A stretch of DNA of 64,000 nucleotides from Arabidopsis thaliana (Eukaryota; Streptophyta; Magnoliopsida; Brassicales; Brassicaceae), in NCBI RefSeq assembly GCF_000001735.4, contig NC_003071.7:9417151-9481150 (forward strand), written 5' to 3'. A model generated the notes under the pieces. It saw only the letters and a list, made by a program, of their open reading frames with translations. It was not told the DNA's origin and did no database searches. The translations under genes were made by a program, and so were the position numbers. Of this stretch, positions 44,192 through 48,132 are shown one piece after another; within the stretch, counting starts at the first letter, position 1; each line of letters begins with the position of its first letter.

Positions 44192-45903
44192 ATGACGAAT
44201 CCACTTAATTCCACCGCCGCTAATCGCTCTAACCAGGTATGTTTTCCGGCGATAACTCATCGTCAGTTTTGATTATGTTCCGACAAAAGTGTGATTCCGT
44301 TCTGATTATCCATTTTCTCAGCCGTCTTCTGATGGAATCAGCGACGGTCAAATCACCAATGAGGAAGCTGAATCACTAATTAACAAGTAATGACTTCATC
44401 TTTTTCATGCGAATGTTTCTTCCGGATTTACTAATTGGGAAGAAGCAATGTTGCTTAAACTAAATTTGCATGCTTTAGGATTTAGTCTGCTTTTGAATGT
44501 GGTTTTCTTCACAAAATGGTTTTTTGGTTCCAAGCCTTTTCAATGTTTCATATAGGAAGAACTGTTCAGGGCACAAGCTAAAAGAAGTAACTGATAGTGA
44601 CACATTCTCTGACAATGGTAAAGATGATTCAGATACCAAGAAAAGATTCCATTACCATCAGGATCAGGTATTTGTCTCATTCAATTACTACGTAAAAGAC
44701 AACTTGTGCTTATACACTAAATATGAGCTTCTAGAGAAGTAGGCCTCCTTTCTGAGTGATGTTGTATGTTTGCTGTGTAGCGGAGGATGAGTTTGACATC
44801 GATTGTGGCGGTGGAGTCTCCTTCATCGAGCAACGCTCCCTCTAGAAAAACCATTGATCTTGGCCATGGAAGCGACCTCATTTACATTCAGAGGTTTCTT
44901 CCATTTCAACAATCTTGGACTTTCTTCGATTATCTCGACAAGCATATTCCTTGGACCAGGCCTACTATTCGTGTCTTTGGTCGATCTTGCCTCCAGGTTT
45001 CCCCACTTCCTCTTTCTCTGTCATTTGTTTTTGTATACATATGATCCATTGAAGCTTTATTGTGTCTCCTCGCGGGTTACATTGAGTATTGTGCAATGTG
45101 AGGAACAAAGATTGCCAGGGCCATTTCCATGCTTGGATTCAACTTGTATCTCAGAAATCTAAGTCACAATCATGTGAAGTCCTGTATAACTTGTGTTTGT
45201 GGCCTTCTAATACATATGCATTTGCCACCTGTAGCCGAGAGATACTTGTTATGTTGCAAGTAGCGGATTGACTGCGTTGGTGTACAGTGGATATCGACCT
45301 ACCTCCTATTCGTGGGATGATTTCCCACCTCTCAAGGAGATTCTGGATGCTGTAAGATTGAAAACAACTATGCTATGTCCCTGTGTTCTAGTGGTTGTTT
45401 GAACTAAAACGTTTCTATTTCGTCTTGTCAGATTTACAAGGTGCTTCCTGGAAGCAGATTCAACAGCTTGCTCTTAAATAGATACAAAGGTGCCAGTGAT
45501 TATGTGGCTTGGCATGCAGATGATGAAAAGATTTATGGTCCAACTCCAGAAATTGCTTCAGTCTCGTTTGGATGTGAACGTGATTTTGTGTTGAAGAAAA
45601 AGAAAGATGAAGAATCTTCCCAAGGTAATGGGACATTTGAGTCATGCTAAAGTGTTTTCCTGCATAGCCAGGAACAAGCCAACTTTTGTTTGGTGTGAAC
45701 CTGCAGGGAAAACAGGAGACAGTGGACCAGCTAAGAAGAGGTTAAAGAGAAGCAGCAGAGAGGATCAACAAAGTTTGACATTGAAACATGGATCGTTGCT
45801 GGTGATGAGAGGATACACTCAAAGAGACTGGATTCATTCTGTGCCAAAGCGTGCAAAGGCAGAGGGCACTCGTATCAACCTCACATTCAGGCTTGTTTTG
45901 TAA
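44192..45903 (+). CDS. ALKBH2: AlkB-like Fe(II)/2-oxoglutarate dioxygenase, DNA dealkylation repair, with a DUF4057-derived N-terminus
   Basis: Oxidatively removes alkyl groups (1-meA, 3-meC type) from DNA. Exons 44192-44236, 44322-44386, 44556-44667, 44781-44996, 45235-45351, 45432-45624 and 45707-45903 give 314 aa. The dioxygenase core is complete: HxD at His213/Asp215 in [10 protein letters not shown], distal His293 in DWIHSVPK, and Arg305/Arg311 in RINLTFR for 2-oxoglutarate; substrate-side [10 protein letters not shown] is present. Residues 1-74 are unlike AlkB. They are encoded by three exons matching exons 1-3 of the next gene (46615-48132), including introns, with [18 protein letters not shown] and [11 protein letters not shown]. 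The catalytic part begins in exon 4 ([14 protein letters not shown]). Whether the added segment is translated or cut away by use of a downstream ATG in exon 4 (44787) is open. Confidence 0.9.
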
Positions 45904-46614
45904 ATTGAGCATCATATGCAAGAAGGTGGGCTTGATCTTGGTCTCCATTGACATATTCTAAGCTTCTCATCTTAATTCTCTATAAACATCAATTGGTGTA
46001 GACATTTCAAGAAGCAAATTGGACGGGAAGATTGATAAGGAAGAGTGGCAAAGTCTTGTCTTGTGTAGTCCCTCTCTTAAACAACATGACGCTTTAACAT
46101 CCTTGTCCCCTAGAGAAATGACTTGATCAAGTGCAAATATCACTCACAATCAGCCATACCAATCCCTGTTCATCTAAAGACATGGTAGACTCATCTAGCT
46201 AGAAACATGAAGTGTGCATAATTCACTAGTGTAGATCTTGCATCCACACTCACCCTTCATACTTGTTTTGCAAACCGAGCATCATAGAGTCGTAGACAAG
46301 GTGGGCTTGATATTCATTGACCTTTGAATAGGCTTTACGCAACCTTTTTTGGTATTTGGATAGCTTTGAATATTTCTGATACAATAAACTCTGTTTTAAA
46401 AGTAATCTAAAAAGATAGACGTTACAAAAAACAAAAAAAAAGCAACGTCCACTAAAATTTAAAACAAAAATAAAATCATTTGACAGAACATATAAAGCGA
46501 ATAAATAGAAAGAAATAATAAATAAAAGATTTCTCACTCACAAACGAAATTTTCAGTTTTAGAATTTGAAAACGTTTTGATCAAAGAGAGTGTGAATCAG
46601 TGAATCAGAGAGTT
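45904..46614. other. 3' flank of ALKBH2 with a repeated 3'-tail fragment
   Basis: Sequence across the ALKBH2 stop codon (45889-45953, cttgttttgtaaattgagc then aaggtgggcttgat) is repeated in degenerate form at 46259-46323 (cttgttttgcaaaccgagc then aaggtgggcttgat). This looks like a leftover of a tandem duplication that included the ALKBH2 end. The rest is leader and promoter of the next gene. Confidence 0.6.
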
Positions 46615-48132
46615 ATGGAAGAGGAGAGAAACAATCCGCATCATTCCACCGCCGATCTTCTTTCTTGGTCTGAGATCCGCCGTCCTGACTATTCCACCGC
46701 CGCTAATCGCTCTAACCAGGTTCGTTTTGCCGGCCAGAACTCATCACTCGTCTGATTTCGGTTTCGATTAGTGAAATTTCGTTCTGATTATCCATTTTTC
46801 TCAGCCGTCTGATGGAATGAACGATGTACTTGGCGGCGGCGGTCAGATCACTAACGCGGAAACTAAATCACTTAATACGAAGTAACCGATTTCATCTCTT
46901 TTCATGCGAATTGATTTCTATGTTGATTCTAGGTTTTGTTAAATTTATCGGATTAATATTGATTCTGGAGAAGCAATTTTACTGGTGAATTTAGTCAATG
47001 TTAAACTCGATTTGCTTGATTTAGGGTTTTGTTTGATGAATTAGGGTTTAATCTGCTTCTGAATGTACCAAGTCTCTTTTCAGTGTTTCGCATAGGAAGA
47101 ACTGTTCTGGGCATAAGCTAAAAGAAATGACTGGTAGTGACATATTCTCTGATGATGGTAAATATGATCCAAATCACCAGACAAGAATCCATTACCATCA
47201 GGATCAGGTACTTGTCTCATCCATTTTTACTTTTGTTAGGAGTTAGTTGATGATAATGGTATCTTATGTAATGGTTACTGGTTCTGCAGCTGAGCCAGAT
47301 ATCATTCAGCGGCGAAGAGAATGCAACAACTCCCATGAATGGCAAAGATGATCCAAATCACCAGACAAGAATCCATTACCATCAAGATCAGGTACTTGTT
47401 TCATCCTCCATTGTACTCTTTTCAAGGATTCAGTTGATGGTAATGGTATTCTAAGTAATGGTTATTGGATTTGTAGAGAAGCCAGATATCTTTCAGCGGT
47501 GAAGAGAATGTGACTCCAAAGAAACCAACCACTTTAAACGAGGCTGCTAAGCAAAAGGAGTTGAGCAGGACTGTAGAAACCCAAGCAGATTCGAAGTGTA
47601 AGAAGAAACAGATATCGAACACCAAGAATAAAGCAATGAGTGGGCATGACATCTTTGCATCTCCTGAAAGCCAACCTCGCCGCTTGTTTGGTGGTGCAAC
47701 ACAATCAGAAGTTAAAGGAAATAAGAACACGGAGGAATCTGCACCGAGGAGCTCGCGTGCATCTGTCAAAACCTCAAACGTAAGTAGTGTCATTACATCA
47801 TGATGATTTTTGGGATGGCTAGAAAACTGACCTGTTTCAATAAAAAAATTTAACAGGGGCAAAGCAGCAACAGATTGTTTAGTGAAGAACATGTTGTGAA
47901 GTCATCAAAGAAGATACATAACCAGAAGTCTCAGTTTCAGGGGCTCACAAGCAATGGTATCTTCAAATCTGATAAAATCCCTCCTGGTTATTCAGAGAAG
48001 ATGCAAAGCTCAGCCAAAAAGCGGGAAATGAGCGGACACAATATATTTGCAGACGGGAAGTCGGAATATCGGGATTACTATGGTGGTGCGAGGAGACCTC
48101 CTGGTGGCGAGAGCAGCATTTCATTGGTCTAA
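46615..48132 (+). CDS. DUF4057-type protein of unknown function
   Basis: Six exons: 46615-46719, 46805-46881, 47096-47207, 47290-47391, 47477-47779 and 47857-48132, 324 aa. It starts MEEERNNPHHSTADLLSWSEI, keeps SNQPSDGMN, GGQITNAETKSL, NKAMSGHDIFASPE, PRRLFGGAT and again MSGHNIFADG near the end. These are motifs I associate with the plant DUF4057 family; no biochemical role is known to me. The protein is Ser/Lys/Asn-rich and probably largely disordered. Exon 4 is a near copy of the end of exon 3 plus the start of exon 5: DPNHQTRIHYHQDQ and SQISFSGEEN each occur twice. Exons 1-3 are duplicated upstream in ALKBH2. Confidence 0.8.

Follow-up and report, generated by a model that had tools for sequence, protein, structure and literature searches.

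In the present study, we analysed the 5' end of ALKBH2 of Arabidopsis thaliana and the DUF4057 gene adjacent to it, both of which lie on the plus strand of a 64,000-nucleotide stretch of chromosome 2 (C2:9417151-9481150, hereafter the window; positions given without a chromosome are counted from its first letter). ALKBH2 is listed as At2g22260 in PMC3265494, one of the articles drawn on here, together with PMC6647327, PMC11779730, PMC8258418, PMC4413256, PMC11507222, PMC11959028, PMC9530910, PMC11397283, PMC8742538, PMC9100520, PMC13409669, PMC4962739, PMC9421480, PMC9388643, PMC9199173, and PMC6379040. The genome searched comprised 119,662,809 bases in 7 contigs and was the only plant genome compared. 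Exon models were placed by hand, and all introns of both genes were of the GT-AG type. ALKBH2 was modelled at 44192-45903, with seven exons and 314 aa: exon 1 (44192-44236, 15 codons), exon 2 (44322-44386), exon 3 (44556-44667), exon 4 (44781-44996), and exons 5-7 (45235-45351, 45432-45624, and 45707-45903), which encode the remainder of a 2-oxoglutarate (2OG)-Fe(II) dioxygenase. Seventy-four codons precede exon 4, which is joined to exon 3 in phase and contains an in-frame ATG 6 nt inside it (44787, Met77). The DUF4057 gene was modelled at 46615-48132, with 324 aa and six exons (46615-46719, 46805-46881, 47096-47207, 47290-47391, 47477-47779, and 47857-48132), and matched PF13266 with an E value of 1.2e-93. 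It is called the donor below, and we take it to be AT2G22270. The original prediction, made from the letters of the window alone, had read ALKBH2 as a chimera that carries exons 1-3 of this neighbour.

The translation of ALKBH2 was found to hold two protein families in one frame. In Pfam searches, DUF4057 (PF13266) matched residues 7-70 (E 5.4e-13), and 2OG-FeII_Oxy_2 (PF13532) matched residues 107-311 (E 2.8e-32; 112.9 bits against a cut-off of 31.2). The first 74 residues alone scored 52.7 bits for DUF4057 against a curated cut-off of 23, over part of the profile only, and the borrowed exon 3 alone reached 21.2 bits in a six-frame search of the genome, which is under that cut-off. Sixteen PDB sequences matched ALKBH2 under E 0.001; all of them were ALKBH2 or ALKBH3, and the matches started at residues 113-122. 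Exon 4 is the first exon of the AlkB part, as the original prediction had it. An HxD motif at 213-215 and H293 were present in columns aligned with human ALKBH2, and the AlkB part is apparently a complete 2OG-Fe(II) dioxygenase. Human ALKBH2 (PF13532; structures such as 3bty) resembles the Arabidopsis protein in the dioxygenase core, in HxD...H, and in a collinear match from residue 122, whereas the first 74 residues of the Arabidopsis protein derive from DUF4057. Human ALKBH2 bears an N-terminal PCNA-binding motif; in the Arabidopsis protein, a search for APIM- and PIP-box-like strings gave none. In a scan of prokaryote genomes, 5 gammaproteobacterial AlkB relatives were found among 67 candidate stretches, with frames of 196-231 aa from stop to stop, which indicate only that the core requires no such N-terminus. 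Repair of methylated DNA by AtALKBH2, with reversal of the alkylation damage, has been reported (Meza et al. 2012, as cited in PMC8258418); abnormal alkbh2 knockout seedlings on methyl methanesulfonate are likewise cited in PMC8258418, and the At2g22260 protein was reported to be nuclear (PMC3265494). Since the basic string KKRLKR is encoded in exon 7, the borrowed tail need not provide nuclear localisation. The tail was hydrophilic, with a charge-hydropathy score of -0.26 (the disordered side) compared with +0.02 for residues 107-314. These observations suggested that catalysis and nuclear entry lie in the AlkB part and that the 74-residue tail, of low hydrophobicity, is probably disordered.

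It was observed that the 5' ends of the two genes are homologous at the DNA level. In a blastn comparison of the two loci, 44208-44686 aligned to 46691-47226 with 381 of 550 identities, gaps included (E 1e-64), and the alignment ran unbroken across introns 1 and 2. Identity over aligned bases was 76% in intron 1 and 72% in intron 2, and the exon 3 region was 85% identical over 151 nt without a gap. The splice phases at the ends of exons 1-3 were 0, 2, and 0 in both genes. The coordinates, splice phases, and intron similarity claimed in the original prediction were thus borne out, including its quoted intron-1 20-mers, which are present, and so was its figure of about 74 added residues. Because the introns are common to both genes, retroposition of the borrowed piece was rejected. 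When 44192-44800 was searched against the genome (a search that scores the best candidates only and skips very common words), two further matches were found, both of them inside the donor and including its internal repeat at the end of exon 3. The donor itself carries an internal tandem duplication, in which 47155-47222 and 47339-47406 are 94% identical over 68 nt and the peptide HYHQDQ is encoded twice.

The limits of the shared DNA were then defined by alignment and shuffling. On the 3' side, the match extended about 22 nt into intron 3; intron 3 alone gave no significant match (65 of 500 dinucleotide shuffles reached its score), and the DNA from 44690 onward did not match the neighbour (499 of 500). 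On the 5' side, the match ended near the start codon. The string GAGGAGNGAAAC ahead of the ALKBH2 ATG still aligned, and none of 300 mononucleotide shuffles reached the score of 44140-44207 against 46560-46642. DNA further upstream was not clearly above dinucleotide shuffles, 45 of 500 of which reached the score for 62 bp and 138 of 500 that for 192 bp; in view of the latter value, a promoter common to the two genes was rejected. From blastn, the shuffles, and the exon 1 alignment, the borrowed DNA was placed at 44177-44689 (plus strand), corresponding to a donor 5' end that begins at about the start codon and stops within the first bases of intron 3. Genome searches around the junctions gave two- and three-copy matches only; these searches skipped very common words and did not look for Pack-MULE or Helitron termini.

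Exon 1 showed that the copy is incomplete. In the donor, two 12-bp direct repeats ATTCCACCGCCG at 46643 and 46691 (span 46643-46702, plus strand) flank 48 bp that are absent from ALKBH2 exon 1, which has one copy of ATTCCACCGCCG and lacks the roughly 48 bp between the two donor copies. The automatic alignment put this gap two bases off the repeat-bounded position. The missing DNA encodes the best conserved peptide of the family (STADLLSWSE in the donor, with the same or a near match in four DUF4057 genes), so the borrowed piece is an incomplete copy of exon 1. The start codon of ALKBH2 also differs from that of the donor. Its origin from an ancestral ACG codon is not claimed, as the outcome varied with the alignment chosen.

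The direction of transfer was examined with the DUF4057 family of the genome. A profile search gave at least 18 matching stretches at E ≤ 1, which we read as four full genes and the ALKBH2 piece; apart from the donor, the genes are presumably AT4G39860, AT1G35780, and AT1G78150. Exons 1-3 with phases 0, 2, and 0 are native to DUF4057 genes, since all four carry them. Maximum-likelihood trees built from exons 1-3 of the five sequences split the pair of ALKBH2 and its neighbour from the other three DUF4057 genes with a support of 100 (200 bootstraps), for nucleotides and protein alike. The borrowed residues matched positions 31-97 of the 299 in the DUF4057 profile and, unlike full members of this plant family, had no match to the first 30 positions (the exon 1 deletion) or to the C-terminal two thirds. 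It is simpler to suppose that ALKBH2 lost the 48 bp between short repeats than that the other genes gained them. Because the borrowed part grouped with one neighbour within a four-gene family and lacked the 48 bp between the repeats, the comparison indicated that the direction is from the DUF4057 gene to ALKBH2. The flow held most likely in the original prediction was therefore supported by the tree split and the four-gene exon structure.

The age of the fusion was estimated from 73 codons by the method of Nei and Gojobori (NG86). Between ALKBH2 and its neighbour, the non-synonymous divergence (dN) was 0.17 and the synonymous divergence (dS) was 0.34 (bootstrap 0.16-0.61). For the neighbour and the homologue that it has in a matching block at chr4 18.47-18.52 Mb, dS was 0.92 (0.55-1.64); for ALKBH2 and the same homologue, it was 0.89 (0.50-1.82). 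The divergence of the borrowed part was thus below that of the DUF4057 duplicate pair. The Kimura two-parameter (K2P) distances of borrowed introns 1 and 2 from the donor were 0.29 ± 0.07 and 0.36 ± 0.06. Because dS was 0.34 rather than 0.92 and the tree agreed, the fusion looks younger than the chr2/chr4 block duplication, which we assume to go back to the whole-genome duplication named alpha. The reading frame of the borrowed exons was kept beyond a neutral model. The lengths of exons 1, 2, and 3 differed from those of the donor by 60, 12, and 0 nt (the 60 includes the start-codon shift), and 6 of 10 intron gaps between the two genes were not multiples of three. In a neutral simulation of our own design with intron-derived rates (20,000 runs), the frame, the absence of stops, and the five splice dinucleotides were retained together in 0.63%, 0.19%, and 0.18% of runs for K per lineage of 0.10, 0.165, and 0.20, respectively.

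Taken together, these results led us to conclude, with a probability of about 0.88, that A. thaliana ALKBH2 is a two-parent chimeric gene, in which a DNA-level copy of the adjacent DUF4057 5' end is spliced to an AlkB-type gene. On this evidence, ALKBH2 is a real and fairly young chimera of a known general kind, with about a quarter of its predicted protein borrowed. We propose that a DNA copy of the DUF4057 5' end, which begins at about the start codon and takes in exons 1-3, introns 1 and 2, and the first bases of intron 3, would have been placed directly upstream of the AlkB-type gene. The borrowed piece would be spliced to that gene because the borrowed intron-3 donor would pair with an acceptor 6 nt before the in-frame AlkB ATG. 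The product would likely be one seven-exon mRNA that begins in borrowed DNA and is translated from 44192, and the result would be a normal ALKBH2 enzyme with 74 disordered residues added as a tail. From the sequence, we infer that exons 1-4 are joined in the mRNA and that the borrowed piece mainly provides a 5' end, with a start codon and splice donors, the peptide being a loosely constrained tail. Met77 is a plausible ancestral ALKBH2 start.

ALKBH2 also has relatives on chromosome 4. ALKBH2 45394-45499 matched chr4 9244413-9244311, and 45735-45905 matched chr4 9244306-9244171, both on the minus strand. A third piece, 45907-46101 (plus strand), which starts 4 nt past the ALKBH2 stop, matched chr4 9242878-9242663 (E 9e-27) and was read as a fragment of a calcineurin-B-like (CBL) gene with the last EF-hand region; by tblastn, the peptide of the chr4 CBL gene matched 46013-46105 (E 1e-8). 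The three pieces (the start of ALKBH2 exon 6, exon 7, and the CBL end) matched chr4 9244413-9242663 in the same order and strand. In the chr4 CBL reading, the joined peptide had calcineurin B-like 2 as its best PDB match (E 6.5e-43), and the single exon tested gave EF-hand Pfam scores under the curated cut-offs. The state of the two loci was reciprocal: on chr2, ALKBH2 is complete and CBL is broken, and chr4 has a readable CBL end and broken ALKBH2 exons 6-7 (9244171-9244413, minus strand), which lie between the CBL gene and an AMPK-beta gene, presumably CBL6/AT4G16350 and AT4G16360. The remainder of the window had no match to chr4 9236001-9250000 at E 1e-3. The match of the ALKBH2-CBL pieces alone therefore suggested that ALKBH2 belongs to a small duplicated ALKBH2-CBL segment, rather than a block, with its other copy at chr4 9.24 Mb. 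A whole-block duplication as the source of that copy was unsupported, given that these three pieces alone matched in the 14 kb compared. The chimera of the original prediction stood, but its local duplication appears to be part of the history only, as ALKBH2 itself lies within a segment copied on chr4.

A degenerate second copy of the junction between the ALKBH2 end and CBL was located by local alignment at 46186-46321 (plus strand; strong part 46237-46314), some 290 bp upstream of the ATG of the DUF4057 gene. Its local score was 42.5, compared with 12.9 ± 2.3 for shuffles, none of 500 of which reached it; identity was 74% over 78 columns and only 57% end to end. The junction thus occurs twice on chr2, at 45903/45907 and at 46186-46321. 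The block at chr4 18.47-18.52 Mb, which matches this neighbourhood, has a DUF4057 homologue, but neither the ALKBH2 core nor CBL sequence was detectable in it. An ALKBH2 remnant there was rejected, since the sole match under E 0.1 was DUF4057 exon 3. Within the window, three further matches were observed. The stretch 46100-46209 (about 110 bp) has two more copies on chr5 (80% and 82%) and is perhaps a piece of an old mobile element. Upstream of ALKBH2, 43671-43722 and 43920-44005 have counterparts in chr1 17788527-17788857 (92% and 83%, respectively), with order and strand conserved. Finally, 48431-48515 matches the corresponding chr4 block with 94% identity over 85 bp and by eye looks like a minus-strand tRNA gene.

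The chimeric reading was weighed against two alternatives. Exons 1-3 could be a decaying tandem DUF4057 fragment, with true ALKBH2 translation from Met77 and the joined model merely a possible reading. Several observations count against the chimera, and some of them would suit this fragment. The in-frame ATG lies just inside exon 4 with AlkB similarity beginning beyond it; 'cDNA not available' is listed for At2g22260 in a passage of a 2012 study (PMC3265494); and the borrowed part shows weak constraint on single residues, with polarised changes of 5 synonymous to 11 non-synonymous for the ALKBH2 branch and 3 to 9 for the donor branch, and with 8 ambiguous. The dS intervals given above also overlap slightly, although the tree points the same way. 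On the other hand, the frame is open, five splice dinucleotides are conserved, and the exon-length differences are multiples of three despite an intron divergence of about 0.3, a combination found in only 0.2-0.6% of runs under our neutral model. The in-phase join of exons 3 and 4, the absence of any ATG from 44000-44191, and the A at -3 of the exon-1 ATG likewise argue against decay, which we regard as improbable; a retained frame with drifting residues fits the expectation for a tail. The opposite transfer, in which plant ALKBH2 had the extension ancestrally and passed its first exons to the DUF4057 gene, would also account for the sequence common to both genes. The published lengths speak to it in part: a sugar beet ALKBH2-like protein of 305 aa would agree with such an extension, and neither this protein nor soybean 2B (125 aa) sits well with the chimera. 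However, 5 of the 7 published non-Brassicaceae ALKBH2 lengths in the passages drawn on fall at 236-253 aa (potato 253, tomato 253, soybean 2A 236, and ginseng 244 and 241), and AtALKBH2 counted from Met77 has 238 aa, a comparison of lengths only; for wheat and poplar, no ALKBH2 length was identified in these passages. In addition, all four DUF4057 genes found in the genome carry exons 1-3, the Pfam profile includes the borrowed part, and the tree, in which ALKBH2 groups with one of the four, contradicts this direction, so that we give it hardly any credence.

A further proposal is compatible with the chimera and would refine it. After the block duplication, ALKBH2 and CBL may have been copied to the DUF4057 5' end from around 9.24 Mb on chr4, and about 500 bp of that 5' end may have been duplicated in the same repair event, flanking the insert on both sides. 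The collinearity of the three pieces on chr4 9244413-9242663, with the rest of the window unmatched, is consistent with this proposal, which would account for the reciprocal loci and the doubled junction as well. Given that chr4 18.47-18.52 Mb has a DUF4057 homologue but matched neither the ALKBH2 core nor CBL, a copy of ALKBH2 may have been placed beside the DUF4057 gene. The K2P distances of the chr2-chr4 pieces (0.13-0.24) may be set beside those of the DUF4057 5' introns (0.29 and 0.36); the two ranges differ, though the chr2-chr4 pieces are partly coding and hence slowed. Against it, the direction between chr2 and chr4 could be the opposite, the two duplications could be separate events, and ALKBH2 may have disappeared from the 18.5 Mb block. 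Comparison of the upstream DNA with the 18.5 Mb homologue at 60, 150, 300, and 600 bp did not single out which DUF4057 5' copy retains the ancestral promoter. We consider this refinement possible, at somewhat less than even odds.

The chr4 relic may have a further consequence. By gene order, AT4G16355 (ELENA1) is expected at the position of the broken ALKBH2 copy, with the CBL gene on one side and the AMPK-beta gene on the other. This long intergenic non-coding RNA (lincRNA) is a predicted trans-antisense partner of AT2G22260 in a passage of PMC6647327, and the relic is the likely source of the complementarity. Among the matches listed in the literature on ELENA1, ALKBH2, and pseudogenes, such an origin was not stated in titles or abstract openings. 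More tentatively, one event after the block duplication might have moved ALKBH2-CBL from chr4 to the DUF4057 5' end, given ALKBH2 its new start, and left on chr4 a broken ALKBH2 3' end, now part of ELENA1, a lincRNA of immunity; on this view, the reported complementarity would be the fossil trace of a gene relocation.

The literature passages on At2g22260, At2g22270, and DUF4057 did not describe the chimera; Meza et al. 2012 lies outside this coverage. As in the chimeric genes formed by fusion and partial duplication in a survey of Oryza (PMC9199173), exons of one gene are joined to the body of another, here together with introns. What sets the Arabidopsis case apart is that the gene so extended serves DNA repair, belongs to a conserved family, and still has its donor next to it. 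A pigeon pea entry, excluded from the seven lengths above, illustrates a practical side. PMC11779730, the one article listed in which ALKBH2 and DUF4057 occur together, reports 'CcALKBH2' as 205 aa with a DUF4057 domain and without a 2OG domain, its genes having been found by BLAST with Arabidopsis sequences. This entry is probably mis-assigned, the borrowed N-terminus of the Arabidopsis query having pulled in a DUF4057 gene. The AtALKBH2 sequence serves as a query for crop ALKBH2, and its borrowed quarter would explain such a mis-assignment; likewise, AtALKBH2 constructs would include a tail that is not to be taken as enzyme. Collectively, the locus would represent a polarised capture of a 5' end in which the donor has stayed next to the recipient, and it offers a testable origin for the trans-antisense match of ELENA1.

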